Shown here: positions 18,763-61,749 of the stretch, in pieces
Position numbering within the stretch: the stretch's first letter is position 1
Layout: each line of letters opens with the position of its first letter
Origin: a virus
DNA: 64,000 bases
Strand: one strand, 5' to 3'
Virus record (IMG/VR): IMGVR_UViG_3300044997_001199
Span: 62,001-126,000 of that record
The notes under the pieces: model-generated
Told to the model about the DNA's origin: nothing
The model's input: the letters and a program-made list of their open reading frames with translations, nothing else
The model's database searches: none
Position numbers and translations under genes: made by a program

Positions 18763-19048
18763 CAAAAATCTCTAGTTCGCCACTGTCAGTGATCCTGCCC
18801 GGTCCGTGGTCAACCCGCCAGTTGGTCAGTGTCAGTGATGCTGTGGTCGGCCTCACTAATTCTCCACGTATCATGTACTTACCTGCTGCAGCGACCACGG
18901 TGAGAGCCTCCTCGAGATAGCAGTTGTGCCAGATCCAGGTGCGTTCGACGAACATTTCGTGCTCCACAAACAGTCTATAGCGTGGAGATTCTTGGGACCA
19001 CTCCATATCTACGTCTACTAGAATTCTCACTGTGTATTTGCGGTCCAT
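18749..19048 (-). CDS. Small beta-rich conserved phage protein
   Basis: The 99-residue protein contains WSQESPRYRLFVEHEMFVERTWIW and ends in a beta-rich LTLTNWRVDHGPGRI part. I recall the YR-x-(F/Y)-V...ERT(F/W)-x-W pattern from hypothetical proteins of T4-like marine phages. Its ATG lies only 5 nt after an AATAAATA box, one of the divergent late-type promoters at 19054-19081. A small structural or binding role is likely but unproven. Confidence 0.65.
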   Translation of the reverse strand: MDRKYTVRILVDVDMEWSQESPRYRLFVEHEMFVERTWIWHNCYLEEALTVVAAAGKYMIRGELVRPTTASLTLTNWRVDHGPGRITDSGELEIFDETV

Positions 19049-19053
19049 AATTG

Positions 19054-19061
19054 TATTTATT
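19054..19061 (-). promoter_or_regulatory. Late-type AATAAATA box, 5 nt from ATG of 99-aa gene
   Basis: Minus-strand AATAAATA, then CAATT and the ATG at 19048. In T4 the late start site is 5-7 nt after this box, so the mRNA would begin at the AUG. Confidence 0.6.
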
Positions 19062-19073
19062 ATAATATTCGCT

Positions 19074-19081
19074 TATAAATA
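19074..19081 (+). promoter_or_regulatory. Late-type TATAAATA box, 5 nt from ATG of radical SAM gene
   Basis: Exact T4 late consensus TATAAATA on the plus strand, followed by ATACC and the ATG at 19087; divergent from the box at 19054-19061. Confidence 0.65.
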
Positions 19082-19086
19082 ATACC

Positions 19087-20127
19087 ATGCTGAAGTTATC
19101 ACAGATACGTCGGGTGCATGTGGAACTGACCACTCGATGCAATGCACGGTGTCCCATGTGTCCTCGGAACTATCGAGGCTATGACTACAATAGCGGTTAT
19201 CCCACAACCGAACTCACTGTGCACGATTTCAGGCACATATTCACACCGGAGTTTTTATCGCAACTTCATCCACCACCGCCGAAGGTATATTCCAATGGAC
19301 ATGTCAAACAAGACTTCCAATTCTATGGCATAAATTTCAACGGCAATCTCGGTGACTTCAGCCTGGCCCAGGATGGCAAAGAAATTGTGCAATATGTGGT
19401 GTCTCATGACGTGGCCGTAAACATAACCACCAACGGACACGCACGAAATGCCGAGTGGTGGCGCGGTCTGGCACATTCCAAGGTCACTGTGGGGTTCGCT
19501 CTGGACGGTCTGGCTGACACACACGCCTTGTATCGCCAGGACACGGACTGGAATCGAGTGATTGCCAATGCCAGTGCCTATATCTCCGCAGGGGGTCGAG
19601 CCATATGGCGATTCATACCCTTTGACCACAATCGACACCAGGAGCAGCAGTGCCAACAGCTGGCCCAGGACCTGGGATTTGAGAGATTTGAAAATATCTA
19701 CGACGGACGGGATCGTGGTCCGGTATACACACGAACCGGAGAATTCAGTCATTGGATCGGTCCGGTGGGAGAACCCGAGAAGTATATCCCTCACGTGAAA
19801 GATCTGTTAGAGAGTCATCGAACTTGGTTCAACATCGAAAAGGATACCAGGGAACTTAACATCGTGTGTGAACACAAACGTCAACGAGAAATCTATGTCG
19901 CAGCTGACGGATCGGTATGGCCCTGTTGTTTTCTTGGCTATTACCCCGGGCAGATGCATCATGCTGGCAACGATCAATTGTTGCCTTTGATTCACGAAAA
20001 CAATGCGCTGAAATATGATCTGTCACACTGCATGCAGTGGTTTGACCGTGTGGAACAAACCTGGCAACAAGACAGCATCGCCAACGGTCGTCTGTATCAT
20101 TGCGTGAACAGTTGTAACCGAGTCTAA
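19087..20127 (+). CDS. Radical SAM enzyme with SPASM-like C-terminus
   Basis: The 346-residue protein has the radical SAM cluster motif CNARCPMC (C18, C22, C25), followed by [15 protein letters not shown] and [13 protein letters not shown] (SAM-binding strands). The C-terminus has extra cysteines in [28 protein letters not shown] and HCVNSCN, as in SPASM/twitch domains that bind auxiliary clusters. SPASM enzymes mature peptides or modify sugars and proteins. It is the only plus-strand gene in the first 40 kb. A full TATAAATA box ends 5 nt before its ATG. The substrate is unknown; small neighbours on the other strand are candidates only by position. Confidence 0.88.
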
Positions 20128-20933: not shown

Positions 20934-21061
20934 GATTTTTCAAAATCGTCTGAGTGGACTGGTACACGGCATGGCCATCGATCCATGGAGTTTTCTGTGA
21001 TACCGTGATTACACAGTGCAACAACCATGATCCAATCGGCGCGGTCTAAGCCTCGAATCAT
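20915..21061 (-). CDS. Small 48-residue protein
   Basis: The gap between the SGNH-like and DUF6492-like genes holds an ATG ORF of 48 codons starting MIRGLDRADWIMVVALCNHG. Its ATG overlaps the upstream stop (ATGA), and its stop falls 19 nt inside the next gene. The short hydrophobic helix WIMVVAL is followed by a polar tail. Start coupling supports a real gene. Function unknown. Confidence 0.5.
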   Translation of the reverse strand: MIRGLDRADWIMVVALCNHGITENSMDRWPCRVPVHSDDFEKSCPNIL

Positions 21062-21897: not shown

Positions 21898-21915
21898 AAA
21901 CTTATATATTGAGCA

Positions 21916-22101: not shown

Positions 22102-22460
22102 TTGGTACGGTTGCCCCAGTTCTTGGCACCTCGCTTGCGACATTGGACCAGCGCACCTGATGCATAGGCCGAAGGCCATACCTTGTAACGGCTTCGCACC
22201 TTGTGATAGCAGGCATCTTTTTTTTCTGTCACGGGCTTGACACGTACCAGCTCGGTGCCACCCACATATTGAAATCCCATGTCAGTGAGTTCTTGATACA
22301 GGTCCTGTATGCGCTGACGCAATCTGACCGCCGATGGGCCAGACTGTTCTGCTTCTATCATCTGACCGAGATCGTCAACGGCACGATCGAGATCCTGGGC
22401 GATGGATTTTGCTGTGTTGACATCAGCAACCGTTCGACTGACAAATTCGTGTGCTCGCAT
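22098..22460 (-). CDS. Leader plus basic Cys-module protein, likely virion-packaged
   Basis: The 120-residue protein has three parts: leader MRAHEFVSRTVADVN, a helical middle (about 20-75), and a basic C-terminal module KKDACYHKVRSRYKVWPSAY followed by ASGALVQCRKRGAKNWG (about 80-120). I recall this module in several hypothetical proteins of T4-like marine phages. Two cysteines and about a dozen Lys/Arg suggest nucleic-acid binding. The leader is like T4 capsid-targeting sequences. The ATG overlaps the next gene's stop by one base (TAATG). Confidence 0.7.
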   Translation of the reverse strand: MRAHEFVSRTVADVNTAKSIAQDLDRAVDDLGQMIEAEQSGPSAVRLRQRIQDLYQELTDMGFQYVGGTELVRVKPVTEKKDACYHKVRSRYKVWPSAYASGALVQCRKRGAKNWGNRTK

Positions 22461-22723
22461 TATTTTTTCTTCTGTGTGGCCACGTTTCGTGCAGCACCAC
22501 GACGATTGGGATCAGGATCCTGCCTGCGTTTTCTTGCGGCAGCCGAGGCTCGGACTTTTTTGCCAAGTGCATAAGCCTTGGCCCGAGGTAGGCACTTGGG
22601 TTTGCCTTCCCGATCCGACCCACGAGCACATGGGCCCATAATTTTACCTTGCGGGTTGAAACGTACCCACTTTTCTTGGAACCATTTTTTAAGATCTTCG
22701 ATCACAAACTCACTGGCGCGCAT
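22460..22723 (-). CDS. Leader plus basic Cys-module protein, likely virion-packaged
   Basis: The 87-residue protein starts MRASEFVIEDLKKWF; VIE-D resembles a T4-type prohead protease site. It then has EKWVRFNPQGKIMGPCARG, GKPKCLPRAKAYALGKK and a very basic Ala/Arg-rich tail ending ATQKKK. The pattern G-x-C-A-R...G-K-P-K-C-L-P recurs in T4-like marine phage proteins as I recall. Its ATG follows a CTAAATAC box by only 4 nt, so it is probably late and leaderless. Head packaging and DNA binding are inferred from leader and charge. Confidence 0.7.
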   Translation of the reverse strand: MRASEFVIEDLKKWFQEKWVRFNPQGKIMGPCARGSDREGKPKCLPRAKAYALGKKVRASAAARKRRQDPDPNRRGAARNVATQKKK

Positions 22724-22727
22724 CGAG

Positions 22728-22735
22728 TATTTAGC
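22728..22735 (-). promoter_or_regulatory. Late-type GCTAAATA box, 4 nt from ATG
   Basis: Minus-strand GCTAAATA, then CTCG and the ATG at 22723 of the basic Cys-module protein. Confidence 0.55.
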
Positions 22736-23777: not shown

Positions 23778-24433
23778 GATCGTATTAAATCCTTTCTCAC
23801 CAACCACCACCGATGGTCGGAATCATGTTTCTTGAACAGTATATTAATGAAGAAAGCAATGTCTTCTTCATTGACCTCGCTGGGATCAGTGACCTGTTGA
23901 TACTCGGTATCTGCAGACAGTCTATCAACCATTCTTTGATACAGCCGCATGCGATTGTTGGGTTCGTCGCGAGGCACACTGAAGTACATACTGCCTGGTC
24001 GATGTTGGGCAGACCATTGGCGTATGGCTTCGATCACTGTGGCAAATATCCTAAACTCATCGCGCCAATCTGTGAGACTAAAGTCTTGGCCGCGGTCAAA
24101 GGTTATTTTCACGGTTTCCCAAATTGGAGTGCGGTCAAACACTATGTAAAGAGGACGACCTTTGTCGTCCTTGGCCACTGCTTGGTCTGCGAAAATTTTT
24201 ACAGGATACGGACGCTCAAACAGTTCGTTAAGGGGCTGCCAGGACCTGGTCTTTGAACCTCGTCGACCTTTGAATCCCACGCTGCAATTCTTGCCGTGCC
24301 TCCGGGGTTCTGGCATGAGTGTGATGTTGTCTTGTTGTGCCAGACGTTGTAGTTCACGCATGGCTCTGATGCTCGGGCCGTTACGCTGTGGTACAGTGTC
24401 TTCTATTTCTGTGATGAATTCTCTTGCTTTCAT
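23774..24433 (-). CDS. Protein with capsid-targeting-like leader
   Basis: The 219-residue protein starts MKAREFITEIEDTV; EFITE closely matches the T4 capsid-targeting leader MKTYQEFITEA, and I-T-E fits the gp21 cleavage rule (I/L-x-E). A basic Gly-rich stretch KNCSVGFKGRRGSKTRS follows near 48-64, then a mixed domain with IVFDRTPIWETVKITFDRGQ and PGSMYFSVPRDEPNNRMRLYQRM. It is coupled at both ends by 4-nt overlaps. The enzyme class is not recognisable. Delivery with the virion is a hypothesis based on the leader. Confidence 0.6.
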   Translation of the reverse strand: MKAREFITEIEDTVPQRNGPSIRAMRELQRLAQQDNITLMPEPRRHGKNCSVGFKGRRGSKTRSWQPLNELFERPYPVKIFADQAVAKDDKGRPLYIVFDRTPIWETVKITFDRGQDFSLTDWRDEFRIFATVIEAIRQWSAQHRPGSMYFSVPRDEPNNRMRLYQRMVDRLSADTEYQQVTDPSEVNEEDIAFFINILFKKHDSDHRWWLVRKDLIRS

Positions 24434-26691
24434 TTTTTTCGCTCGACAGGCTCTGGCCAGTTGGGTCTTCTACGGGGTAGTTGACTGGGCATGGGCAGTG
24501 CTGGCCCAACTGGTGCTATTTTTTCATCCAGTATCCAGGTATCGGGTATTTCTCCGTGCTTTTTTACCCACATGTCATGTAGTTCCTGACCGGTCAGATC
24601 GTAGGTCTGGGCAATACGCCGCATGATTTTATCTATTCTATCATAGACCTGTTGGTTGGACATTTTGTTCAGTTGAGAGCGGTGCTTTTCCAGTGCGGCT
24701 TTGAGTTCCGGCACTGCATTTTTGCTGTCGCAATGCCGGGATTTATCTGCACGACCAAATTTATTTGTACCACTGTCGGATTTTTCAAGCATGACAGGTT
24801 TGAGTTTGAGATACTGTGGAAACTGTTTGTTAAATTCGCGCATGATCTCTCCAGTAGCCTGATCCAACTTTCTCATGCCACTGCCTTCGCTCACAGGCAC
24901 ACAGTTGGGTACTTGTCGTTGACCCTTGCGTTTTGTGCCTTGCTGGCGGTAGCCGGTCCAACATTTTTCTCTCAGAACCCCGTGTTGTTTGAACTCATCT
25001 AGTGCATTCTGTAAGCCGCTGATCAACAGCGCAGGCATAGTGGGTTTGGATTCAAGACTCGGGGGATGGTCTGGATCATAATCTTCTTGCTGTGGTTCAC
25101 GACTGATAATGCGTGAGGGCAGAGGTCTGGTTCCAGTGGATGTTGAGGGGTCAACCTGCGGTTGTCTGCGTTCCCAGCGATAGATATGACTTTGATTTTG
25201 TGCATTGGCATCGCCCTGTCGAGCACGTAGATAGTTTTTGAGCTCTTGTGTGACTTCTTCCTGCGCACCTGCGGTTCCATAGCGTTCCATGCTCTGCACA
25301 GTGCGACCCAGAGTCTGCACTGTGCGCAGATCCGACATGGTCACGCATCCTGACAGACCAGCGGCCGCACACATGCCAGCGATGGCACGAGCAGTGCCCG
25401 GCGGAATCAGACTCGTGATGTCTTCGTGTAGTTCTTGTCCAAACAGTTCAGGATGACTGTCGGCAAAATCACGCATGATTTTTCCGGCCACAGCGTGAGC
25501 TTCGTCTTCGAATGGCGAGCCGGCACTGCCGGCATCAGTCGGCAACGGTTCAATTTCATGCTGACGGCAGTGTACCAGTTCGTGTGCGGTGGTGCGTAGG
25601 ATATCTAGTAGGTGCCGACCGACCAGGCTCACATGTAGTTCGTGTTGTTCGGGATCATACATACCAAAACTGTGTCGGCGCTCGCTCCAACGGTCGCCGC
25701 GATGTAAAAATATCCGAGGCAGCCGCTGTATCTCCAGTCGGCGGGCAGTGTCTTGGATAAACTGTTTGAGAACCGTGTCGGTGTCAGTCTCGGACAGGAA
25801 CATGTGTGTCGAGGCGCTCACACCGCCGGGCGAGCTCAGTGCAGCTTCTCTAACACTTTCACCGCCGCCGTCGCCGCCGCTGTCGCCCGAGGACTGAGAA
25901 TCGTTGCCAAAAAAAGCATAGCCCGGAAACCAGTAGCCACCGTAGGCCCAACGTTTTCTTGGTTGGGATTTCTTTTTCTTTTTGCGTTCCACTAGACTCA
26001 ATTCTCGGTCCCGGGCCGCACGATGTGCAGAATACAAACGATCGATTAGACCTTGATTGCGCAACAGCTTGAATGCAAGATTTTCTGCACCGAATTCTCC
26101 ATGGTGTGCCAGTCCTGCTTTACGCATGTTCTTGACGGCATCGATCATGGTCTCGAGCCGGGACAGATTGTCCGACTCGATAGCTGCTTCTATCCGATGT
26201 CCTAGATCCTCGTATTTGTGACGTACACTGGCATCATTGATTTCGGCGCGCCGACGTCGTGGAACCGCTCGCCACTCCTGATCACGTACCGAATAGATGC
26301 CCTGACTGACATGAGGTTCGGCGGCATCCTGCACATAGAGTTCAACTTCGTGTGGACCTATGCGTATGTTGTGTTCGTCGTTGAACTCATATTTTTTTGC
26401 CGAAAACAGTTCGCGGTATACCACGTTGTTGGGCATGTTCACGACCAGATGTAGATCCACATCGGAATGATCGGTATAGTTGTAGGCAGCATTGCTACCG
26501 CTCACTGTGATGTCTTGGATTTCGAGATCGTCTACGCCCAGAAACTCGCGAAAATTATCTGCTATGGTCAGCAGAGCCTGCCGTACCCGGGGATGTAGAT
26601 GCTCATCCGGTCCCCAAAGGACCGGATTGAGCTGATCGTGAAATTTTACCGCGTCTGAAAGACGATAGGATTCTAATTCGTTGATATCCAT
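24430..26691 (-). CDS. Nucleotidyltransferase plus HExxH metalloprotease multidomain protein
   Basis: The 753-residue protein has several parts. Residues 55-125: nucleotidyltransferase of the pol-beta type, with SGSNAAYNYTDHSDVDLHLV (GS at 65-66, acids D77 and D79). Residues 236-265: Lys-rich linker and aromatic-Gly stretch. Residues 310-410: zinc-metalloprotease-like, with HELVH at 370-374 and acids EDE at 395-397 as possible third ligand. Residues 575-600: basic Cys module KCWTGYRQQGTKRKGQ...PNC. The C-terminus is helical and basic. It has a CATAAATA box 5 nt before the ATG inside a perfect inverted repeat. It may be a virion-delivered enzyme; activities are inferred. Confidence 0.75.
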   Translation of the reverse strand: MDINELESYRLSDAVKFHDQLNPVLWGPDEHLHPRVRQALLTIADNFREFLGVDDLEIQDITVSGSNAAYNYTDHSDVDLHLVVNMPNNVVYRELFSAKKYEFNDEHNIRIGPHEVELYVQDAAEPHVSQGIYSVRDQEWRAVPRRRRAEINDASVRHKYEDLGHRIEAAIESDNLSRLETMIDAVKNMRKAGLAHHGEFGAENLAFKLLRNQGLIDRLYSAHRAARDRELSLVERKKKKKSQPRKRWAYGGYWFPGYAFFGNDSQSSGDSGGDGGGESVREAALSSPGGVSASTHMFLSETDTDTVLKQFIQDTARRLEIQRLPRIFLHRGDRWSERRHSFGMYDPEQHELHVSLVGRHLLDILRTTAHELVHCRQHEIEPLPTDAGSAGSPFEDEAHAVAGKIMRDFADSHPELFGQELHEDITSLIPPGTARAIAGMCAAAGLSGCVTMSDLRTVQTLGRTVQSMERYGTAGAQEEVTQELKNYLRARQGDANAQNQSHIYRWERRQPQVDPSTSTGTRPLPSRIISREPQQEDYDPDHPPSLESKPTMPALLISGLQNALDEFKQHGVLREKCWTGYRQQGTKRKGQRQVPNCVPVSEGSGMRKLDQATGEIMREFNKQFPQYLKLKPVMLEKSDSGTNKFGRADKSRHCDSKNAVPELKAALEKHRSQLNKMSNQQVYDRIDKIMRRIAQTYDLTGQELHDMWVKKHGEIPDTWILDEKIAPVGPALPMPSQLPRRRPNWPEPVERKK

Positions 26692-26716
26692 GGTTGTATT
26701 TATGAAACAACCATGG
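26688..26716. repeat. Perfect 9-bp inverted repeat around a late-type box
   Basis: CCATGGTTG (26688-26696), an 11-nt loop, CAACCATGG (26708-26716). The loop carries the minus-strand CATAAATA box and the left arm contains the ATG of the multidomain gene. It could form a hairpin or bind a dimeric regulator. Confidence 0.7.
26697..26704 (-). promoter_or_regulatory. Late-type CATAAATA box, 5 nt from ATG
   Basis: Minus-strand CATAAATA, then CAACC and the ATG at 26691 of the multidomain protein; it lies in the loop of a perfect 9-bp inverted repeat. Confidence 0.6.
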
Positions 26717-26725
26717 ACCTGCGGC

Positions 26726-27583
26726 TTACTTTTTGCGAGTTCGCGTGCGTTTGCTTTCGGTCAAAACTTCAGGCTCGGACCATTTGGTCGACTTGTCGGA
26801 TTCGGTGGTTTCTTGCTTGGAAGTATCCACTGGCTTGGCCTGGCTCTGTGTCAGCGCATGTAGATCCTGATAGAGTTTGTCCTGTGTGGCACCATCAAAC
26901 ACATAGGTACCCACATGCCTGAGCAGCACACGATTGTCAACATAGACCTTTCCGCCCAGATCTCGCCAGTTTTCACAGAAAGTCCAGTCTTCTGAGTAAT
27001 AGCGATTTTCTCTCACTGCGGTGTCAAAATAGGTCTTCATGTGCTGGTTGAGTTCCTGAGGCAGTCCGATGTCATTGTTGAAGTGACGCACCGCAGGATG
27101 CTGATCTAGTTTTTCAAAAACTTCACGTTTGATCAACATAAATCCAGTGCCAGTCTTGGTCACTTCCACCAGGTTATCTGTGCCTTCTTCTTGCCCCGGG
27201 ATCCCGTTCACACACCATTTCACAGGCAGGCTCTTCATGGGATAAAGGCCACCGATCACATCAACATTGCGATTCAGCATTACCAGCAGATGCCATGGTT
27301 CCCAGCCAATGTCGGCATCGATGAACATAAGGTGAGTGGATACAGGTGTGCTCAGAAACTTGGCTGTGAGTGTGTTGCGAGCGCGACTGATGAGACTTTC
27401 GTTGGTCATGGTTTCTACTGTCCAGTCAATACCCAATTGACGGCAAGTGTTGCTCCACTTGACAAAGCTCATGAATGTTTGCTCGGTCAACATACCACCA
27501 TAGCAAGGCATACAGATGTGCACACGAGTGGTTTTGAGGTAGTCGATATTGACCTGTATTTGTACCTGTTGTTGTTCAGACAT
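26726..27583 (-). CDS. Family 2-like glycosyltransferase
   Basis: The 285-residue protein has the GT-A start RVHICMPCYGGMLTEQTFMSF, the DxD block LMFIDADIGWEP (about 86-97), then GGLYPMKSLPVKW and a later acidic YYSEDWTFCENWRDLGGKVYVDNRV, the usual acceptor-side region. The C-terminal 45 residues are a polar Lys/Thr/Glu tail. It has GGAGAT before the ATG and a TAAATA box at 27610-27615. I recall homologs in many T4-like marine phages. Acceptor unknown. Confidence 0.82.
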   Translation of the reverse strand: MSEQQQVQIQVNIDYLKTTRVHICMPCYGGMLTEQTFMSFVKWSNTCRQLGIDWTVETMTNESLISRARNTLTAKFLSTPVSTHLMFIDADIGWEPWHLLVMLNRNVDVIGGLYPMKSLPVKWCVNGIPGQEEGTDNLVEVTKTGTGFMLIKREVFEKLDQHPAVRHFNNDIGLPQELNQHMKTYFDTAVRENRYYSEDWTFCENWRDLGGKVYVDNRVLLRHVGTYVFDGATQDKLYQDLHALTQSQAKPVDTSKQETTESDKSTKWSEPEVLTESKRTRTRKK

Positions 27584-27600: not shown

Positions 27601-27623
27601 ATACTACTATATTTACGTAGTAT
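27601..27623. repeat. 7-bp inverted repeat around a TAAATA box
   Basis: ATACTAC (27601-27607), 9-nt loop, GTAGTAT (27617-27623), the loop holding the minus-strand TAAATA before the glycosyltransferase gene. Same layout as at 26688-26716, different arms. Confidence 0.6.
27610..27615 (-). promoter_or_regulatory. Late-type TAAATA box before glycosyltransferase
   Basis: Minus-strand GTAAATA within a 7-bp inverted repeat; 26 nt before the ATG at 27583, leader with GGAGAT. Confidence 0.45.
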
Positions 27624-27654: not shown

Positions 27655-28800
27655 TTAATCGATGGGGATATTTTGAACATCCGAGGAGCGAATATTTTTG
27701 AGATTAGTGGCGCCATAACTGCGGTTCTTCCACAGACCTTGATTGTATATGTTCAACATAGCATAGTATAGATAACTCGGGTCCACACGGTCTTGGGCCG
27801 TGACCTTGATACCAATGTGTTTGGGATTGAATTCTCGTACCGGGCAACCCACAGCAGATTCCGCCTCGGAGCGTATCAGCCAAAAATCTGCATCGGGAAA
27901 GTTGGTGCGAATTTCGCAATAGTTGGACAACCGCGACTCCTGCAGAGCTTGTTCTATCACACTGTGACTTTTGGTTTTTTTGCCAGATTGTCTGGCTCGA
28001 CGGCCTGCACAATGAGCTCGCTGGCTGAAGCCTTTAGGGTTGTTGCAGTTGATTGAACGTTTGTAGGTTTTGCTCCAGCTGGCTTCGTTTATGTAATCCT
28101 CGGCCATGGATTGGTTTTCACAACGTTGATACAAGGCCATCAGACCTGATGTCGGGGTACCAGACATCTGACCTGCTTGTTCGTTGTAGGTCGCGGCCCA
28201 GCCTTGATTTTCCTCTACAGACCCTGTTATGGCATGATCCAACAGCTTGACCACGATATCGGCCAACTTCCGGTTGCCCTGAGTTCGTGGATACAGACTC
28301 ATGACCAAGTCCAGTTTTCGACGATCATTGAGAGTGGGCCACGCCGTACGAATTTCGGTGGCCGACGTCAAGCCCGGGCCAAATTTCACTGTGGGCAGAT
28401 AGGTCATGTAGCCGTGCTGATTCATGGGCTTGGGATTGTCATCCAGTGGCTGTAGGTATGCCGGAGTACTGTCTCGTTTGATGCCGCCGGACCGAGGAGG
28501 CTTGTTTCGATCTTTTTCGCTGCGCACAAAAATCAGCACTGTGTCGCGAGGATCATACTGTTGAGTGATTTCCTCCACGCGAAATGGTGATTTCACTCTC
28601 ACAAAACGATCAGGGTCCACTCCGGCCAGCCGTGCCAATTTTTCTTTAACTGCAAACGGAAATGGTCTAGTAGAGGTATCGTCAGTGGCTGCTATATAAA
28701 CATCTGCCTGGGGGAACTTGCGACGAGCAGCGTCATACAGAGCCTGATGCCCGGCATGGAAAGGGTGGAATCCACCTGGCATGATCACCAATTGTTTCAT
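27655..28800 (-). CDS. Nucleotidyltransferase fused to basic module and HsdS-like domain
   Basis: The 381-residue protein combines three parts. First, a cytidylyltransferase-fold domain with PGGFHPFHAGHQALYDAARR (HAGH 15-18) and FVRSEKDRNKPPRSGG. Second, a basic Cys module SWSKTYKRSINCNNPKGFSQ plus RAHCAGRRAR (241-270). Third, a C-terminal domain (about 300-381) with DADFWLIRSEAESAVGCPVRE, YLYYAMLNIYNQGLW, YGATNLKNIRSSDVQNIPI, the pattern of the closing part of type I restriction specificity (HsdS) target-recognition domains. An AATAAATA box ends 6 nt before the ATG. The role could be DNA-end or host-DNA recognition; this is inference. Confidence 0.72.
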   Translation of the reverse strand: MKQLVIMPGGFHPFHAGHQALYDAARRKFPQADVYIAATDDTSTRPFPFAVKEKLARLAGVDPDRFVRVKSPFRVEEITQQYDPRDTVLIFVRSEKDRNKPPRSGGIKRDSTPAYLQPLDDNPKPMNQHGYMTYLPTVKFGPGLTSATEIRTAWPTLNDRRKLDLVMSLYPRTQGNRKLADIVVKLLDHAITGSVEENQGWAATYNEQAGQMSGTPTSGLMALYQRCENQSMAEDYINEASWSKTYKRSINCNNPKGFSQRAHCAGRRARQSGKKTKSHSVIEQALQESRLSNYCEIRTNFPDADFWLIRSEAESAVGCPVREFNPKHIGIKVTAQDRVDPSYLYYAMLNIYNQGLWKNRSYGATNLKNIRSSDVQNIPID

Positions 28801-28806: not shown

Positions 28807-28814
28807 TATTTATT
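28807..28814 (-). promoter_or_regulatory. Late-type AATAAATA box, 6 nt from ATG
   Basis: Minus-strand AATAAATA, then CTGGGT and the ATG at 28800 of the NTase/HsdS-like fusion. Confidence 0.6.
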
Positions 28815-29254: not shown

Positions 29255-29614
29255 CTAGTAGTTTACGATGACAGAATTGATGGTACCCGAGGCAAAATCC
29301 TCGACTCTGGCCCGCAGCCAGACAAAATTTCCCAAAATGTTGGCAGGGTGATAATCGGTGCGAGGACCAGAAATCGCGGAAAATTCATAGGTTGCGAACC
29401 AAGTCGCAGTGTCAGTCAAGGTGTCCAGGCTGGCTTCGATCGTGATGATTCCCTCGAACTCCGTGGTCTGTATGATCACGGTCTGGAGACCTCCGCGCCC
29501 ACGATAGTAGCTGGCCGCAGGAACTGCATCACTGAACCAGTCCTGGCTGGATCCGTCGTAGTTGCCCGACGGTTCGCCGTGAATCGTGGTGTTCAAGATG
29601 ATTTCTGTGGTCAT
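29255..29614 (-). CDS. Small beta-sandwich phage protein, likely structural
   Basis: The 119-residue protein starts with TTIHGEPSGNYDGSSQDW and ends FVWLRARVEDFASGTINSVIVNY. The G-x-P-S-G-N-Y-D-G-S-S motif and the YYRGRGGLQTVIIQ strand are patterns I recall from marine T4-like phage proteins placed among virion genes. Its ATG overlaps the 55-aa gene stop (ATGA). Likely a virion accessory protein; not proven. Confidence 0.65.
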   Translation of the reverse strand: MTTEIILNTTIHGEPSGNYDGSSQDWFSDAVPAASYYRGRGGLQTVIIQTTEFEGIITIEASLDTLTDTATWFATYEFSAISGPRTDYHPANILGNFVWLRARVEDFASGTINSVIVNY

Positions 29615-29778
29615 TGTACCGATTCAACTTCTACTACCACATTGTTGCCTACCAGTTCCTGTGCTACGGAGGCCAATGTGTCCTTGATGTCTTCCAATAT
29701 CATGGAATCCACAGTGTCATTGTCACGCATTAACTTGCTGAACTTGATTGTAATGGTTTCTTGGTGTATTTTTGCCAT
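29611..29778 (-). CDS. Small 55-residue protein
   Basis: Read from the gap: an ATG ORF of 55 codons, MAKIHQETITIKFSKLMRDN at the start and VEVESVQ at the end. It has a regular amphipathic pattern (ILEDIKDTLASVAQELVG), ATGA coupling with the next gene, and a CTAAATA box ending 7 nt before the ATG. These support a real late gene. Function unknown; a tail or head accessory role is possible. Confidence 0.7.
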   Translation of the reverse strand: MAKIHQETITIKFSKLMRDNDTVDSMILEDIKDTLASVAQELVGNNVVVEVESVQ

Positions 29779-29784: not shown

Positions 29785-30429
29785 TTATTTAGTCTGTATG
29801 GGCATGGTCTTTCGGATTAGACCAGGCACAGCCAGGCTCAGCAATATTAGATCCCCCTGATCATAGTGATCTACGAAATAGTAATTTCTGATATAATGTT
29901 GTCGACTTTTGAAAATATGCTGTTGTAGAGATTGGCTTGGACGGTATCGATCGGCGTTCGATTCGAGAAAGTTTTTCAATGTCTGAGATTCTCTGGGATC
30001 CAGATATCGTTCGCGAAAAAAAGTCCTGAATCCATACCGAGATCGTTTTTTAATCACCACACCTGCTGGACGATCCAGCGTGACCTTTCCGGCCCACAGA
30101 CAGACCACGTTTGTCTGAGAAATCACAGTGGTCAAAAACACTGGGTCATTGGAATAGAGATAGAGATAGTCTATCTGACAAATTTTTTTGAATGGGTCAG
30201 TACTAGCCAATAAAAGATCGCACAGCTGATGCATTCGTTTGACTCGATCCTCGTCGATACGATGGCGATTCCAGGGAAAGCCGATGCAAGTATTTCGATA
30301 CAGCACCATCTCATCTATGGCATTATGGTCCAGTTGTCTGAGAACGCACACATCAGGAACATAACATCGTATGCCACAGAGGTATCGATTGAAATATAGT
30401 GAGCTGCGTGATTCGGGCCTAAATTCCAT
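29785..30429 (-). CDS. Conserved-type hypothetical phage protein
   Basis: The start MEFRPESRSSLYFNRYLCG is chosen over an earlier frame position inside clpA. The 214-residue protein has YFNRYLCGIRCYVPDVCVLRQLDHNAIDEM near the N-terminus and a Leu-rich C-terminal LILLSLAVPGLIRKTM. I recall YFN(R/D)Y...LR.LDH proteins of T4-like marine phages without assigned roles. It overlaps the clpA stop by 11 nt. No catalytic motif is visible. Confidence 0.6.
   Translation of the reverse strand: MEFRPESRSSLYFNRYLCGIRCYVPDVCVLRQLDHNAIDEMVLYRNTCIGFPWNRHRIDEDRVKRMHQLCDLLLASTDPFKKICQIDYLYLYSNDPVFLTTVISQTNVVCLWAGKVTLDRPAGVVIKKRSRYGFRTFFRERYLDPRESQTLKNFLESNADRYRPSQSLQQHIFKSRQHYIRNYYFVDHYDQGDLILLSLAVPGLIRKTMPIQTK
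29786..29793 (-). promoter_or_regulatory. Late-type ACTAAATA box, 7 nt from ATG
   Basis: Minus-strand ACTAAATA, then ATCTGCT and the ATG at 29778 of the 55-aa protein; the box overlaps the TAA stop of the upstream gene. Confidence 0.55.
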
Positions 30430-32695
30430 TGTCTCTGGGCGGCAACTGAATGACGTTGTAGGACTGAGCATGATTCACTGGGTCGATATCAAAGATCACT
30501 TCGTTGTCCAGCATCCTGGCAGTGACCGAACAGTTTTCTAGCTGATCAAACAGGATGCGACGGCTCAGTGGTACTCGGATCAGTTCGTCGATCTTTCTGC
30601 TCAAGGGCCGTGCTCCCATCTTGTGATCATAGCCCTTTTCGGCCAGATAGTCGATCACTGGCTCGGTCAAGGTCAATCGTATTTGACGACCGGCAAGACT
30701 GGTCTTGAGATCTTCTACGAACTTGACCACAATCTTCTTCACTGCCAGTTGATCCAATTTCCGGAACTTGCAAATCTGGTCGATGCGATTGCGTAGTTCG
30801 GGACGGAAAAATTCTCGTAGCGCACGATCTTCTTCGCCGGTCTTTTCCAGATCCGATGAAAATCCAATGTTGTTGTTTTCGTTGTCACGAGCACCAAGAT
30901 TGGAGGTCATGATGATGATACAGTTTTTGACATCCACTCGCTTGCCATTGTTGGAACTGACATGTCCTTCGTCCAACATCTGCAGCAAGATGTTAGTGAC
31001 ATCCGGGTGTGCTTTTTCGATTTCATCAAACAGCAGCACCGCGAACGGATTTTTATTGAGATCGCTGATGAGTTTGCCACCGCCCACAGTGCCATCTTCG
31101 AAACCAACATAGCCCGGAGGTGCACCGATGAGGCTACTCAAGGTATGACGTTCTTGATATTCGCTCATGTCGTAACGCAGCATCTTCATGTTGAGATTTT
31201 CCGCCAGTAGTTTGGCCAACTCAGTCTTACCTGTGCCCGTGGGTCCAAGAAACAGGAAGCTGGCCATGGGTCTGGTAGTAGGGCCGATGCCCGCAAAGTT
31301 GATATACACTCGTTCCAGCACACGATCCACGACATCGTCCTGTCCGTAGAGTCTCTGCTTGATGTTGCTTTCGAGATCAACGATCTTGGCACTGCGCTCG
31401 TTCTGCAATTTGTCTGTGGGAACTCCGCACACTCTTGTGACCTGTTCCTGGATCATGGCACGAGTGATCGTGACATTGCCCTGATCTTTTACACGTTCTC
31501 GAGCACAGGCACCGTCCAGGAGATCGATGCTCTTGTCGGGATTTTTGCGATCATGCATGTAGCGAGTGGCATATTCCACTGCTGCAGTCATGGCCTCGGT
31601 GTCGATCATGACATTGTGAAACTGTTCCAGGCGCGGACTGAGACCAATGAGTATCTGTTCTGTGGTCGCAGCATCGGGTTCGTCGATGCCCAGACGATAG
31701 AATCTGCGCATGAGTGCGCGATCCTTTTCAAACGACTCGTGATATTCTTCCCAGGTAGTGGATGCAATGACCTTGAGATTGCCGCGGGTGACCGCTGGCT
31801 TCAACATGTTGGCAAAATCAAGATTGCTGTTGGAACCCGAGCCTGCACCGCGCATGGTGTGTGCTTCGTCGATGAACAACACACACTTTTTTTTGTTTTC
31901 CAGTGCTGCTATGACCAATTTGAACTTTTCTTCAAATTCGCCGCGGTATTTGCTGCCGGCCAGCAAGCTGCCAACTTCGAGTCCCCAGACTTCGTGGTCT
32001 TTCAGAAACTCTGGTACTCGACCGGCCATGATTTCCTGTGTAAGGCCTTCCACGATGTGTGTTTTGCCCACACCGGGGTCGCCTACCATGAGCACATTGG
32101 CTTTGAATCTGCGAGCCAAGACCGTGATCATTTCTTGCAGTTCGTGACCGCGACCGATCATGGGCTCGAGACGATTCTCTGCAGCCATTCCTGTGAGATT
32201 GGTGCAGTATTCGTTGAGTATCTCTGTGGCCTGACTGGCAGTCAACTTGGCAGTGTTTGATCCTCGGTCGTAGGTTTTGGTCCAAAAATCCACGAACTCA
32301 TTTTTCTTGACACCATACTTGAGCAAGAAATAGTGAGCATGACTGTTGGTTTCGCTCATGATACTGAGATAAAGATCGGCCGTGGTCAGGTTTCGCCGTC
32401 CGGTAAACATGGCCTGCACATTGGCGCGATTGAAGATGCGTTCCAGTGTCTGAGTTTTTTTGGGCTGGAAATCTTCTGAGTTTTTGACCAGGCCCGCCAG
32501 GCTGTCGATATAGGCTTCGATTTCTATATCCAACAACTCGATTTCCACTCCAAATTTTTCTAGAGTTTTGCGGAACGGTTGATAGCGTATCAGAGCCAAC
32601 AACAGGTGCTCAGTTAACACATATTCATGCTGTTTGTTGCGAGCAATCTTGGTAGCTTCTTCGACGATGGCTTCGATTTCGTGGTTCGGGTTCAT
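30419..32695 (-). CDS. clpA: ClpA-type AAA+ unfoldase
   Basis: ClpA hexamers unfold proteins and feed them to ClpP. This protein has 758 residues, the same as E. coli ClpA. It has a Clp N-domain (1-140), AAA-1 with GDPGVGKT (205-212) and VLFIDEAH (272-279), and AAA-2 with GPTGTGKT (484-491) and LLFDEIEKAH (554-563). The ClpP-docking tripeptide is kept as IGF at 610-612, in the loop where ClpA has IGL, so it could take over host ClpP. A CTAAATAC box ends 6 nt before the ATG. dnaJ lies just upstream. Confidence 0.95.
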   Translation of the reverse strand: MNPNHEIEAIVEEATKIARNKQHEYVLTEHLLLALIRYQPFRKTLEKFGVEIELLDIEIEAYIDSLAGLVKNSEDFQPKKTQTLERIFNRANVQAMFTGRRNLTTADLYLSIMSETNSHAHYFLLKYGVKKNEFVDFWTKTYDRGSNTAKLTASQATEILNEYCTNLTGMAAENRLEPMIGRGHELQEMITVLARRFKANVLMVGDPGVGKTHIVEGLTQEIMAGRVPEFLKDHEVWGLEVGSLLAGSKYRGEFEEKFKLVIAALENKKKCVLFIDEAHTMRGAGSGSNSNLDFANMLKPAVTRGNLKVIASTTWEEYHESFEKDRALMRRFYRLGIDEPDAATTEQILIGLSPRLEQFHNVMIDTEAMTAAVEYATRYMHDRKNPDKSIDLLDGACARERVKDQGNVTITRAMIQEQVTRVCGVPTDKLQNERSAKIVDLESNIKQRLYGQDDVVDRVLERVYINFAGIGPTTRPMASFLFLGPTGTGKTELAKLLAENLNMKMLRYDMSEYQERHTLSSLIGAPPGYVGFEDGTVGGGKLISDLNKNPFAVLLFDEIEKAHPDVTNILLQMLDEGHVSSNNGKRVDVKNCIIIMTSNLGARDNENNNIGFSSDLEKTGEEDRALREFFRPELRNRIDQICKFRKLDQLAVKKIVVKFVEDLKTSLAGRQIRLTLTEPVIDYLAEKGYDHKMGARPLSRKIDELIRVPLSRRILFDQLENCSVTARMLDNEVIFDIDPVNHAQSYNVIQLPPRDNGI

Positions 32696-32701: not shown

Positions 32702-32709
32702 TATTTAGA
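32702..32709 (-). promoter_or_regulatory. Late-type TCTAAATA box, 6 nt from clpA ATG
   Basis: Minus-strand TCTAAATA, then CCCACC and the ATG at 32695. A second TAAATA (32712-32717) lies 4 nt further up, overlapping the dnaJ stop. Confidence 0.55.
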
Positions 32710-32714
32710 AATAT

Positions 32715-33497
32715 TTATTGATCACGGTGCTGCCGTATGGCTTCGGTGATTTCTGGAGCCACGCGATGCGGTATGTTGACTGACACTTTTACAAATGCAT
32801 CTCCCTGTTGTCCCTGTTGGTTTTTCAGTCCGCAGCCGCGCAATCTCAGCAGGGTCCCGGGCTGACAACCGGCTGGGATCTGCGTGACCAATGAGTTGTT
32901 GTAGATGTCCGACAGTTCCAGGCTTCCGCCCAGTATTAGATCCCAGATCAAAATTTTGCGTTCGGTGACAAGGTTCAACCCTTGTCGTTCCCACCGCGAA
33001 TCTGGGCGTATACGGAACTGTATCATCAGGTCCAGACCATTGGGGCCCAGGCCTGCATACTGTACGTTGGCGCCGTCGTCGATGCCCTGTGGTATAGTGA
33101 TGTCAATGGCCGAAATTTCTTGATTGGTGCTCACAGTCACGGTTCTGTTGCCACCAACCGCAATGTCATAGAGAGATACCCAGAGTGTCATCCTTACATG
33201 ATTGCGTCGCGCCTGTGTTTGTGCAAAGCTCTGATTGCGAAAAACATCAAAAATGTTGTTAAAGTCAAACCTATGAGTTCCGAAATCAAATCTAAAAGTA
33301 TTGGATCCGCCGGAATCATATTCCTGGCGTCGCTGTGCATCTCCCAGTACATTATAGGCACTTTGTATTTCCTGGAACTGCTTGGTGTTGCCGCCGCGAT
33401 CAGGATGATGCTGGCTGGCCAATCGACGATAGGCACGCTTGATTTCTTCGGCGCTGGCAGTGCGAGGTACACTCAACACGCTGTAATGATCTTGCAT
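32715..33497 (-). CDS. dnaJ: DnaJ/CbpA-like co-chaperone
   Basis: The 260-residue protein has a J domain (1-65) with HPD at 31-33 and YNVLGDAQRRQEYD. There is no Cys-rich zinc domain, and a DnaJ C-terminal substrate domain follows (VTVSTNQEISAIDITIPQGIDDG, RKILIWDLILGGSLEL, LLRLRGCGLKNQQGQQGDAF). It is thus CbpA-like and would stimulate host DnaK. A TTGATC-17-TATAAT promoter (33505-33533) would start transcription close to the ATG. It precedes clpA, making a chaperone/unfoldase pair. Confidence 0.93.
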   Translation of the reverse strand: MQDHYSVLSVPRTASAEEIKRAYRRLASQHHPDRGGNTKQFQEIQSAYNVLGDAQRRQEYDSGGSNTFRFDFGTHRFDFNNIFDVFRNQSFAQTQARRNHVRMTLWVSLYDIAVGGNRTVTVSTNQEISAIDITIPQGIDDGANVQYAGLGPNGLDLMIQFRIRPDSRWERQGLNLVTERKILIWDLILGGSLELSDIYNNSLVTQIPAGCQPGTLLRLRGCGLKNQQGQQGDAFVKVSVNIPHRVAPEITEAIRQHRDQ

Positions 33498-42745: not shown

Positions 42746-43279
42746 TTATGCTTGCTTGTCTCTCTGATATTCTTCTTGATCCAGATCCATTTCATAGGCC
42801 CGGTCTAGATCTTCGAGATCGATTTCTTCATCTTCCATTTCCACAGAACCAGTGCGGATGTCACTCATCAGGGCCTTGGGTATGATGATCTCTACCAGCC
42901 ATACCGGACGTTCCACTAGCCTGGCCTTCTTGGTTCCGGGGATGAAATCGTTGGGGTTAGTGATACGTATGGGTATCGTGATCTTGGTTTTTCTGTACAA
43001 GACCCGTATGTCAAATGGCAGCAGACGCCGTGCGCCGCGCGGATCAGGCATGAGATGTTCGGGCCAGAGAAATGTACAGGCCACGCGATATCTACCAATG
43101 TCTGGACCTTCTACTAACTCGCCTATGTCCCAGTTGCGGAATGCATAGAGGTCCAGTTCGTCTAACACACGTTCGAAATCCAGCAGGGTAGTGAGACTGC
43201 CATTGGACATATAGATGTCACGGATGTTGTCGGCTACCTGCCAATAGTTTTTGTGATTTTTAAATGTGTCGCGATCCAT
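42746..43279 (-). CDS. Conserved-type phage protein, late promoter
   Basis: I choose the ATG at 43279 (MDRDTFKNHKNYWQVADNIR) because a CATAAATAC box ends 5 nt upstream, like other late genes here. The 177-residue protein has LDELDLYAFRNWDIGELVEG, FLWPEHLMPDPRGARRLLPF and an acidic C-terminus rich in Glu/Asp. The partner gene follows after 1 nt. It is found in T4-like marine phages as I recall. Virion or assembly role likely, not proven. Confidence 0.72.
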   Translation of the reverse strand: MDRDTFKNHKNYWQVADNIRDIYMSNGSLTTLLDFERVLDELDLYAFRNWDIGELVEGPDIGRYRVACTFLWPEHLMPDPRGARRLLPFDIRVLYRKTKITIPIRITNPNDFIPGTKKARLVERPVWLVEIIIPKALMSDIRTGSVEMEDEEIDLEDLDRAYEMDLDQEEYQRDKQA

Positions 43280-43284: not shown

Positions 43285-43292
43285 TATTTATG
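43285..43292 (-). promoter_or_regulatory. Late-type CATAAATA box, 5 nt from ATG
   Basis: Minus-strand CATAAATA, then CTGTC and the ATG at 43279; it decides the start of the 177-aa protein. Confidence 0.6.
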
Positions 43293-56636: not shown

Positions 56637-56667
56637 TATTTACCAAAATGACCAGGTTCGGTAAATA
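56637..56667. promoter_or_regulatory. Back-to-back GGTAAATA late-type promoters between fibre operons
   Basis: TATTTACC at 56637-56644 and GGTAAATA at 56660-56667 form a perfect 8-bp inverted repeat, giving one GGTAAATA box per strand. Each lies 17 nt from its ATG (56619 minus, 56685 plus), and each leader holds a ribosome site. Confidence 0.65.
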
Positions 56668-58055: not shown

Positions 58056-58058
58056 CAC

Positions 58059-60410
58059 ATGAGAACCATCACACGGCCTGCGGGATATATCGGACAAACT
58101 CAGTATCTCAATACCTTGCCTGTCTCTGTCACAGTGATCGCTCATCTCTGGGGTGGTGGCGGTGGTGGTGGCGGTGGTGGTGGCGGTGGTGGTGGCAATC
58201 GCGACGGTGGGAGCGGCGCCGGGGGCGCCTATAGTCGTGTGACAGTCGAGTTGCAACCACAGGATCTCCTGGGATTGGCAGTTGGTGGTGGCGGTGGAGG
58301 CGGTGCCAGCAGCCTTGATGGACTGGCCTCAGGGGGATCTGCAGGCGGTAGTTTTGTTTTGGCATCAACAAGTTTCAGCGGCGCCAACGGCGGTTACGGA
58401 ACTGCCGGCGGTGGTGGTGGTGGATCAGGCGGTGCCAGTGTGCTGTTTGTCAATGGCACAATCATAGCGACCGCGGCAGGCGGTGCGGGCGGCGGCGGAC
58501 GTGCTGCTGTCAATGGTAACCCATACATAGCTCCAGGTACCACAGGAACCGGTGGTGCTGGAATATATGCCGGGCAAAATGGACAAAACATGCCGGTCGC
58601 AGGTGGCGGTGGTGGCGGTGGCGGTGGGGGTTATCAAGGCGGCAATGGCGGTGCGGCTGCCAGTAACAACGGCGACGGTGGTGCTGGAACCAACGGAGTA
58701 TCATATACCGCCGACGGCGTTGTCGTTGAGAGCTCAGGGCGTGTTCCGGGCAACATCAGACAAAGTTACTACGACGATCGATCGGGATACGGCGGCCAAG
58801 GAGGGTCGCCCGGACAGCCTGGGGGCCGAGGAATCAGCGGATTCATAGTATTGGAATTTTCTTCGTTACCGGGTATCTATGTCAAGTCAGATGGCCAATG
58901 GTATCCTACCAACAAAATTTTCGTGAAGCAGGGAGGTCAATGGAGTTTGGTACAGGATCTATTCGTTCGCGACAATGGAATCTGGCAAGTGACTGCGGCC
59001 ACATCTGGACCGCAGTTACTAACAGATTTTGGCAAATTTGGCGTGGCGCCTCGGCTCTTTGCAGACCCTACGGTTCGATTGACCAGTCTATCATGGAATC
59101 CTGCGTCCACAGTGACCGGGGGAGTATCCACACTGACCTGGCAGACTATTTTTGCTCAATCTGTAGACTATGTAGTGGAATTTTTTCCAGCCCCACCTCC
59201 TCCACCTCCTCCACCTCCTCCACCACCTCCACCTCCTCCACCTCCTCCACCTCCTCCTCCACCGCCACCACCACCGCCGCCGCCCCCACCACCACCGCCA
59301 CCACCACCGCCTCCACCGCCACCACCTCCACCAATAACTGGTAATTTTAACTACCTTGGTGTAGAGGATGGTCCTACTGGTCTGCAATCTACAATTGTAC
59401 TTGGTGTGACCGGTCCAGGCCCCGGGGTCTATGATTACAGTATTATCGGTTCTCCTGCAGTAACATTTGATAATTTTAGCGGAAACCCTCCCATCGGTAC
59501 ATTTAATTGGTTATCTGGGGGTACCGGAGGCAATCAGAGAGCCGTTTGTCGACTGATTACGCCACATGAGGCCACTATATTAACAGCTCGTATCAGTCGT
59601 AGTGGTTATGCTGATTTTACTGAGACTTTGTTTGTGCCCGAACTGATACCACCACCCTCGGGCTCGATATCCTATGTTGTTCCTGGAGTTTATACGTTCA
59701 CGGTTCCCGAACAAACGGCGACTCTAAGAGTCACCTTGTCCGGTGCAGGCGGCGGTGCGGGCGGGCCAGACACTTCAAAGCCAAGCGGAGCCAATGGGCA
59801 GCCGGGACAATTGGTAACTGGTACCATACCAGTTACCCCAGGGCAAAATCTCACTGTCCATGTAGGAGCTGGCGGAGGTTTTGGTATCAGTGGAAAATCT
59901 GCTGTTCCTGGTATTGGTGGATCAGGGTTTGGGACCGGTGGTTCCGGCGGAGCATCAGGCGGTATCGGAGCGTCCGGATCCGGTGGCGGCGGCGGGGGGG
60001 GCAGTGCAGTGTTAGCAGGTGGTGTGGCCTTGGCAATGGCTGGTGGTGGGGGCGGCGGCGGCGGGGCTGGTAAGAATAGTGCTGGCCAGGGAATCCAGGC
60101 CAATATCTATGTGAACGACAAAAACGGCGGCGCAGGTCAGACCAAGGTCGGTGATGGAGGTGGTGGAGGTGGCGGTGGCGGTGGCTCAGCCGGCGGTGTT
60201 GGAGGTGCTGTGCGCAATGGAGACAGCGGTGCATTCTCGGGTGTCACTGGTCAGAGTTTCGCTCCGGGTGGAACAATAAATGCCACTGGAGGGGGCGCAG
60301 GCGGCATCGCAAGTATCCCCAACAACAGCACCGGCAATGGTGCAGCCGGCGCAGTGACCTTGGCCTGGGGACCGGAACAACAACAGTTGTTGTTCCGGTC
60401 CGATGACTAA
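58059..60410 (+). CDS. Adhesin with Gly-rich domains and 47-proline run
   Basis: The 783-residue protein begins with a Gly-rich domain ([15 protein letters not shown], with repeats of GGGG and GNGG), then a fibre-type part PGIYVKSDGQWYPTNKIFVKQ. It then has an uninterrupted stretch of 47 prolines (59193-59333), an Ig-like domain (YDYSIIGSPAVTFDNFSGNPP), and a C-terminal Gly-rich domain starting SYVVPGVYTFTVPEQTATLRVTL. Gly-rich domains of this kind are tip adhesins, as in T4-group gp38. A tail-tip receptor-binding role is likely. Confidence 0.8.
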   Translation: MRTITRPAGYIGQTQYLNTLPVSVTVIAHLWGGGGGGGGGGGGGGGNRDGGSGAGGAYSRVTVELQPQDLLGLAVGGGGGGGASSLDGLASGGSAGGSFVLASTSFSGANGGYGTAGGGGGGSGGASVLFVNGTIIATAAGGAGGGGRAAVNGNPYIAPGTTGTGGAGIYAGQNGQNMPVAGGGGGGGGGGYQGGNGGAAASNNGDGGAGTNGVSYTADGVVVESSGRVPGNIRQSYYDDRSGYGGQGGSPGQPGGRGISGFIVLEFSSLPGIYVKSDGQWYPTNKIFVKQGGQWSLVQDLFVRDNGIWQVTAATSGPQLLTDFGKFGVAPRLFADPTVRLTSLSWNPASTVTGGVSTLTWQTIFAQSVDYVVEFFPAPPPPPPPPPPPPPPPPPPPPPPPPPPPPPPPPPPPPPPPPPPPPPPPITGNFNYLGVEDGPTGLQSTIVLGVTGPGPGVYDYSIIGSPAVTFDNFSGNPPIGTFNWLSGGTGGNQRAVCRLITPHEATILTARISRSGYADFTETLFVPELIPPPSGSISYVVPGVYTFTVPEQTATLRVTLSGAGGGAGGPDTSKPSGANGQPGQLVTGTIPVTPGQNLTVHVGAGGGFGISGKSAVPGIGGSGFGTGGSGGASGGIGASGSGGGGGGGSAVLAGGVALAMAGGGGGGGGAGKNSAGQGIQANIYVNDKNGGAGQTKVGDGGGGGGGGGGSAGGVGGAVRNGDSGAFSGVTGQSFAPGGTINATGGGAGGIASIPNNSTGNGAAGAVTLAWGPEQQQLLFRSDD
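59193..59333 (+). repeat. 47-proline codon run
   Basis: 141 bp of CCN codons only, mostly cca and cct, later ccg. Codon mixing follows a cct-cct-cca rhythm, suggesting growth by repeat slippage. It separates the fibre part from the Ig-like and Gly-rich domains. Confidence 0.9.
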
Positions 60411-60465
60411 ATTGAATCGCGCAAATATATCAAGTTGTAGTGTCACCCCCGAAACACAGTGTAAC

Positions 60466-60471
60466 TAAATA
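60466..60471 (+). promoter_or_regulatory. Late-type CTAAATAT box, 6 nt from ATG
   Basis: Plus-strand ACTAAATA followed by TTTCAT and the ATG at 60478 of the second proline-run adhesin. Confidence 0.55.
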
Positions 60472-60477
60472 TTTCAT

Positions 60478-61749
60478 ATGTCCTACGCCACAGGAACCAA
60501 TCGTCCTCCCAACAGCAGTGTCAGTCTGGCATTGAATCGGCCTGGCACATACCGCGCAACGGTCACTGCCTACAATGCCGATCGTTCGCAGTCCGTCCAG
60601 GCCACAGCAACAATCATAGTAGCAGATCTACCTCCTCCACCACCTCCTCCACCTCCTCCACCACCACCTCCACCACCGCCACCACCTCCTCCACCACCTC
60701 CTCCACCACCTCCTCCACCTCCACCACCTCCACCACCGCCACCACCTCCCCCACCGCCACCACCGGCTCCTGTAGTGGCTAATTATAGTGGACCAGATTA
60801 CGTATCACAGTTGGACCAAGATCGGTTGTTGCTGATGCCCACTGGTCCGGGTCCCGGTCCTTACACTTACACACTGATCGGCTCACCTGCAGTGGCGTTT
60901 GATACTCAAAGTGGCAACCCTGCTGCAGGCACGCTATTGATTTATCAGACCGCTATGGTCAATCTCATAACACCACATCCCGCGACCACAATAACAGCCA
61001 CAGTAAGTCTTCCAGGCAGCGACGATTTCGTGCAATCAATTGCAGTGCCGGCACGTGACGCACCTTCCGGCACAGTAGAATTTACTCGATCTGACACCAG
61101 TGGTACCTGGACGATTCCGCCTGGCGTAACATCGCTACGGATCACTGTGGTCGGTGGTGGTGGTGGTGGTGCTCCCGGTAGCGAAAAAGACCCATACTGG
61201 TCCGGCGGTGGCGGCGGTGGTGGTGGTGGCATATTGCAAACTACATTGAATGTAATGCCCGGAAACGAAATCCGGTATCAGGTCGGTGCAGGAGGACCAG
61301 GAACCGGACCAGTGGGTTCATCACCAATATACCCGGGCTACTCGGGTACACAATCTTATGTTGAATATCTTTCTACCTATTACCGCGCAGACGGCGGCCA
61401 GGGCGGCGGAACATCCGGTGGTATTTCCCGCCAACATTGGAATACTGGTGGAGCCGGTGGATCCCCGGGCGGAACTGCCGGAAATCCTGGACAATCGCAG
61501 CGCGGAGAAAATGCCAACCGCAATCTCATGCCCGGTGGCAGCGGTGGTAGTGCCAGCCCCTATGGATTTGGTGGCAACGGTGCAACCGGCGTACCGCAAG
61601 GTGGCACTCCAACTGACACCAATACAAATGGTCAACCCGGTACCGGATACGGCAGCGGTGGTGGTGGTGGAGCCGGTGGTAAAAACAATGCACCGCAGGG
61701 TCAGGGCGCAGCCGGATCAGGAGGTTATATCAAGATCGAGTGGGGTTAG
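60478..61749 (+). CDS. Adhesin with 45-proline run and Gly-rich domain, paralog of previous gene
   Basis: The 423-residue protein has an Ig-like start ([20 protein letters not shown]), a run of 45 prolines (60631-60765), an Ig-like domain [20 protein letters not shown] and a C-terminal Gly-rich domain starting [20 protein letters not shown]. Proline run, Ig-like and Gly-rich domain follow the same order as the second half of the previous gene, so it is a tandem duplicate. A CTAAATAT box ends 6 nt before the ATG. It converges with the Fe-S carrier gene by a 4-nt overlap. Confidence 0.8.
60631..60765 (+). repeat. 45-proline codon run
   Basis: 135 bp of CCN codons in the paralogous adhesin, with the same cct-cct-cca rhythm and the same place before an Ig-like domain. 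Confidence 0.9.

Follow-up and report, generated by a model that had tools for sequence, protein, structure and literature searches.

Does a late promoter of the T4 type that ends a few nucleotides before a start codon yield a message that begins at the AUG itself? The question is raised by a 64,000-nucleotide stretch of viral DNA (hereafter, the window), which corresponds to positions 62001-126000 in a virus record of 215,330 bases. A preliminary description of the window pointed to nine genes with the box TAAATA directly before the ATG and predicted that their late mRNAs are leaderless. Late promoters of this type and leaderless messages have each been known on their own; what would be new is a heritable subset of genes in which the promoter is fused to the start codon.

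The contig and its relatives

Sequence comparison places the contig in a clade of uncultured giant phages of the T4 superfamily. The nearest matches of its tail sheath are Atu_ph07, PA5oct and Phosso. Its ClpA-type protein matches 80 loci on viral metagenome contigs at 64-78% identity; among phage records the best match is about 40%, with nothing much higher and no cultured member of the clade. As clade contigs are up to 353 kb long, the 215,330-base contig is probably a fragment. We looked on it for the gp55, gp46/47 and portal genes and did not find them; they occur in longer relatives.

Three sets were used for comparison within the clade: five large contigs with called genes, 15 contigs as whole records and the 80 relatives' loci. 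Genes of the contig and of the clade contigs were called by coding score alone, and the box played no part in the calling.

The left end of the contig, outside the window, carries the truncated C-terminus of a 2-hydroxyacid dehydrogenase (L002:3-356; PF02826). It resembles NAD-dependent formate dehydrogenase and has no match among the clade contigs and loci compared. The fragment is either part of a metabolic gene carried by the phage or the sign of a chimeric end of the contig.

Boxes next to start codons in the window

A check of the sequence found all nine box-ATG pairs where they had been described, with gaps of 4-7 nt, the gap being counted from the end of TAAATA to the ATG. The box had been written as N(A/C)TAAATA(C). 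Its core TAAATA is strongly conserved, but the flanking letters are not, so this motif was drawn too tightly.

Two of the boxes face away from each other. On the minus strand, the box at 19054-19059 (gap 5) precedes the ATG at 19048 of a 99-aa gene (18749-19048), predicted to be leaderless. Its orthologues have the box at gap 4-5 in the relatives G002, G003 and G006, and among 13 orthologous loci 9 have a close box. On the plus strand, the box at 19076-19081 (gap 5) precedes the ATG at 19087 of a predicted leaderless gene for a 346-aa radical SAM-like protein (19087-20127; phrog_21308, 2.8e-16), whose score for Pfam Radical_SAM is slightly under the cut-off. Its orthologues in G006 and G010 are likewise close-box genes.

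The best conserved cases lie on the minus strand. The box at 26697-26702 (gap 5) stands before the ATG at 26691 of a 753-aa protein with no assigned function (24430-26691; phrog_36119, 2.8e-42). Of its 68 orthologous loci, 61 have a close box, each time at the same codon, and so do the orthologues in all five clade contigs. A cytidylyltransferase-like protein of 381 aa (27655-28800; PF01467, 3.5e-5) starts at 28800, behind the box at 28807-28812 (gap 6); here the close box recurs in 67 of 73 loci and again in 5/5 clade contigs. Both genes are predicted to be leaderless, as is that of a 177-aa virion structural protein (42746-43279; phrog_12928, 7.8e-25), which has its box at 43285-43290, 5 nt before the ATG at 43279. 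A close box was found in 20 of 21 loci of this family and in 5/5 clade contigs, and where the start codon is displaced, by up to 27 nt, the box is displaced along with it. The box at 29786-29791 lies 7 nt before the ATG at 29778 of a 55-aa gene (29611-29778) from a conserved family of 54-55 aa. This gene is predicted to be near-leaderless, and 53 of 55 orthologous loci have the close box, at gap 7.

Support is weakest for the remaining three of the nine genes, which are without support from orthologues. The 87-aa gene at 22460-22723 on the minus strand (phrog_23735) is a weak leaderless candidate: its box (22728-22733, gap 4, a weak case) precedes the ATG at 22723, and relatives with 67-81% identity have no box at the equivalent codon. 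For the 423-aa tail-fibre-like protein on the plus strand (60478-61749; phrog_863, 1.4e-20; PF21722), predicted to be leaderless from the box at 60466-60471 (gap 6 to the ATG at 60478), no orthologue was found among the relatives compared. The third is clpA on the minus strand (30419-32695; 758 aa; phrog_4871; Pfam AAA_2, ClpB_D2-small and Clp_N), with a box at 32702-32707 (gap 6 to the ATG at 32695) and a second TAAATA at 32712-32717 (gap 16). None of the 80 relatives has a close box at this codon, which makes the close box a feature of this contig only. We therefore rejected clpA as a conserved example: its relatives have a Shine-Dalgarno (SD) sequence (60 of 79) and mostly TATAAT-like boxes farther upstream. 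As for the ClpA-type ATPase itself, its conservation extends over 80 or more of the clade's viral contigs.

Besides these nine genes, about ten had been described with the box 17-70 nt upstream and a ribosome-binding site. We counted about a dozen in the window, and an SD is visible in most of them. An 883-aa gene on the minus strand has its box at 56637-56642, 17 nt before the start (SD AGGA), and its orthologues are leadered. At the same distance, the plus-strand box at 56662-56667 precedes a tail-fibre gene (SD AGGAG; phrog_11393) that is leadered in 5/5 clade contigs. The 285-aa gene at 26726-27583 on the minus strand, whose box (27610-27615) lies 26 nt upstream, is likewise leadered in 5/5 clade contigs.

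Two spacing classes across the clade

The hexamer TAAATA occurs 33 times in the window against 15.8 expected, a count reached by none of 100 shuffles. The whole contig contains 101 occurrences, 26 of which are followed by an ATG after 4-7 nt (about 7.5 expected). When only called starts are considered, 14 lie 4-8 nt after TAAATA, as opposed to the 1.67 expected from the density of TAAATA further upstream (P about 3e-9).

The distances between box and start fall into two groups. On the contig, the box lies 4-8 nt before the start in 14 genes, 9-15 nt in 2 and 16-30 nt in 17. The corresponding numbers are 97, 8 and 112 genes in the five clade contigs, and 195, 12 and 194 ATGs in the 80 relatives' loci when only distinct sequences are counted. 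The genome-wide motif search thus bore out the proposal that the tight spacing is non-random and that there are two spacing classes, with starts at 4-8 nt or at 16 nt and more. The close-box observation is confirmed as real, and it extends far beyond the window.

The arrangement follows the clade. In whole records, the pattern TAAATA-N(4-7)-ATG exceeds its reversed control in 15 of 15 clade contigs, with no comparable excess for a spacing of 9-12 nt. There was no clear excess in T4, Atu_ph07, PA5oct, Phosso, S-PM2, KVP40, Aeh1, CBB, SCTP-2, P-SSM2 or syn9. Among called genes, T4, syn9, Phosso and Atu_ph07 have none at 4-8 nt and PA5oct has 2 (the counts for Phosso and Atu_ph07 cover the first 400 kb only), and all five have the leadered class. 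Unlike in the clade, the box in these phages almost never lies 4-8 nt from a start.

The spacing could in principle be a matter of chance, a by-product of AT-rich intergenic DNA or of TAA stop codons placed before an ATG. In 17 of the 69 close-box genes that follow a gene on the same strand, the TAA of the box apparently is the stop codon of that upstream gene. Such an origin has next to no probability, given the excess of called starts over expectation and given that permuting the hexamer abolishes the effect. Of 14 other letter permutations, counted at 4-8 nt in the five clade contigs, most gave 3-12 genes against 97 for TAAATA; the highest counts, 34 each, are those of ATAAAT and AAATAT, which overlap with the same TAAATA boxes. 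Additionally, T4, PA5oct and Atu_ph07 lack the close-box class despite their higher AT content, and the retention of the close box in orthologous loci also contradicts chance.

Inheritance of the spacing class

Among orthologue pairs from the five clade contigs, 109 were close-close, 153 far-far and only 8 mixed. The spacing class is thus inherited by orthologue. Where N-termini differ in length, as in the family of the 177-aa structural protein, the box keeps its place before the shifted start. Swaps of class were seen in both directions. The clpA gene is close-box here and SD-led in most relatives. The reverse is true of a superoxide-dismutase-like gene of the iron/manganese type, located directly downstream of infA (window 62198-62755, minus strand): it is SD-led in this contig and close-box in four relatives. 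In two relatives, G002 and G003, the box of this gene starts with the TAA that ends infA. The portal gene, which is leadered in T4 (gene 20), is close-box in G003, G006 and G010.

The close-box families include portal and other virion proteins, cytidylyltransferase-like, metallophosphoesterase, radical SAM-like and superoxide dismutase proteins. Tail sheath, tail tube and tail fibres belong to the leadered families; that structural proteins made in high copy tend towards the leadered class is no more than suggestive. By codon bias, taken as a proxy of expression, close-box genes lie slightly below leadered ones, a weak difference (P 0.015, uncorrected).

Inheritance also bears on whether the first gene behind the box is its target. 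The box might be a real late promoter that serves genes further downstream, with the first open reading frame (ORF) poorly translated or started internally. About 73% of close-box genes lie behind a gene on the same strand, in operon-like runs, as this would have it. Nevertheless, we regard it as improbable: the coupling of box and start holds in 53-67 orthologous loci per gene and also where the N-terminus differs in length, and the portal and other virion proteins among the close-box products must be made.

Where the messages would begin

In T4, the late box spans -13 to -6 (PMC1524935), so transcription is expected to start on the sixth base after the box. With this spacing, a gap of 5 nt puts +1 on the A of the AUG, and the 5′ ends of close-box messages are predicted to lie 0-3 nt from the start codon.

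Several features of the close-box starts agree with this prediction. An SD of 4 or more bases is found in 1% of close-box genes as compared with 78% of far-box genes (difference in SD energy, P 3e-29), although the box itself takes up the SD window and so accounts for part of this lack. The start codon is ATG in 92 of 94 close-box genes (98%; P 0.004 against genes without a box). Position -1 is a pyrimidine in 82% of close-box genes, 56% of leadered genes and 52% of genes without a box (P 5e-9 for close-box against no-box genes).

Genes with a gap of 7 nt show a signal of their own. Position 5 after the box is an A in 16 of 18 of them, followed by pyrimidines at positions 6-7; this A is also present in 63 of 68 distinct loci, mostly from one gene family. 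The conserved A lies three bases before the ATG, which suggests that these genes probably carry a 3-nt leader. The prediction that the messages start at the AUG is therefore supported for gaps of 4-6 nt, whereas at gap 7 a short leader is the more probable form. The leadered genes show an increase in purines 5-8 nt downstream of the box, with no single position standing out as a start-site signal. The 5′ structure of the coding region did not differ between close-box and leadered genes.

Alternatively, the close box could be an AU-rich translation signal within a longer mRNA, binding S1 or substituting for the SD. It does occupy the SD position in genes that have no SD. However, the same hexamer stands 16-60 nt upstream of SD-led genes, and hardly any box lies at 9-15 nt, a distance that would suit a translation enhancer. 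The pyrimidine at -1 and the A of gap-7 genes fit a transcription initiator, and phages of the T4 group use the same box as a late promoter (PMC1524935). A translation signal is thus very improbable.

Like T4-type late promoters, those predicted in the clade have a TATAAATA-like box with the TAAATA core. The first bases of the T4 consensus show no conservation in it; T4-like phages are known to vary at -13 of the late promoter (PMC1524935). Between -45 and -1 relative to the box, we found no conserved element in either class (at most about 0.2 bit per position). With nothing strongly conserved upstream of the box, there is no -35 element, in likeness to T4 and as expected for gp55 promoters. 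A late sigma of the gp55 family (phrog_12791) is encoded by 9 of 15 clade contigs, among them every one of at least 236 kb. It is absent from this contig and from five others of at most 225 kb, which are likely fragments. Of the two further factors of T4-type late promoters, the coactivator gp33 and the gp45 sliding clamp, the clamp was sought with a single family (phrog_223), which matched only T4 and not the clade, Atu_ph07 or PA5oct; as the latter two were missed as well, this says nothing about a clamp in the clade.

A model of split late expression

Taken together, the arrangement appears to be a clade-wide variant of T4-type late transcription. Very probably, the boxes are T4-type late promoters, some of them positioned to make transcription begin on the AUG (gaps 4-6) or some 3 nt ahead of it (gap 7). 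A gp55-like late sigma would direct RNA polymerase to TAAATA. At gaps of 4-6 nt, the start would fall on the A of the start codon, and at gap 7 the message would begin 5′-A-Y-Y-AUG. Lacking an SD, such messages would presumably be translated via a leaderless, 70S-type route. Other late genes would use the same box at least 16 nt upstream, and their leader would hold an SD. The nearly empty zone at 9-15 nt would correspond to leaders of roughly 4-10 nt, avoided as too long for leaderless initiation and too short for an SD. What we infer in this scheme is where transcription starts, that expression is late, that initiation is of the 70S type and whatever part IF-1 plays. The clade would then provide many natural examples of leaderless and SD-led genes that answer to the same sigma factor.

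The initiation factor was part of the preliminary description, and the window indeed encodes an IF-1: infA, at 62757-62987 on the minus strand and up to 76 aa long from a TTG, scores 65 bits against PF01176 (cut-off 30.2). IF-1 is present in 15/15 clade contigs and, among seven other phages, in Phosso only. IF-3 was found in none of the 8 clade contigs tested. Three giant relatives that lack the close-box class, Atu_ph07, Phosso and CBB, do have homologues of IF-3, and Phosso has both factors. According to a review (PMC9031893), leaderless translation in vitro is stimulated by IF-1 and IF-2, and a raised level of IF-3 inhibits it. It is conceivable, if rather doubtful, that the late programme is split into SD-led and leaderless messages and that the phage, with its own IF-1 and no IF-3, tilts host ribosomes toward the latter. 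This gives the phage-borne IF-1 a testable role. As the clade is one lineage, IF-1 and the close-box class may represent a single correlated event. IF-1 does not mark the class perfectly, a reading that we rejected since Phosso carries IF-1 without close-box genes; the factor is thus not sufficient.

A likely benefit of the close box is insulation. In read-through RNA from upstream genes, close-box ORFs would be silent, so that their product would come only from their own late promoter. The frequency of same-strand upstream neighbours does not by itself favour this idea, because leadered genes have them equally often (74%).

Relation to known systems

T4 faces the same problem of keeping late ORFs untranslated in early RNA: RNA structure silences its late genes e, soc and 49 in early read-through transcripts (PMC3014915). 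T4 hides the SD or the AUG in a helix, whereas the clade would have no SD at all, its function in this respect being surmised. The close-box arrangement would then be an alternative to the structural silencing of T4.

The closest cellular parallel is in Deinococcus-Thermus, where a -10 region adjoining the ORF yields leaderless mRNA (PMC12340547). As in the clade, the box lies a few bases before the ORF at a specific spacing, there is no ribosome-binding site, and an SD-led class coexists. The two differ in that the former is a cellular TANNNT -10 box with experimental proof, and the latter a phage late-sigma box known from sequence evidence only. Among the mostly open-access papers searched for leaderless late mRNAs of T4-like or giant phages, we found no description of this arrangement, which is a weak negative. 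A paper on a giant phage does note that transcripts of phages frequently lack a leader.

The position of the box also allows annotation of the start codons of close-box genes. A possible further close-box start, with a gap of 7 nt and a product of 176 aa, lies at 9052 of the window on the minus strand. It falls within a longer ORF of low score, the called start of which may have been placed too far upstream.
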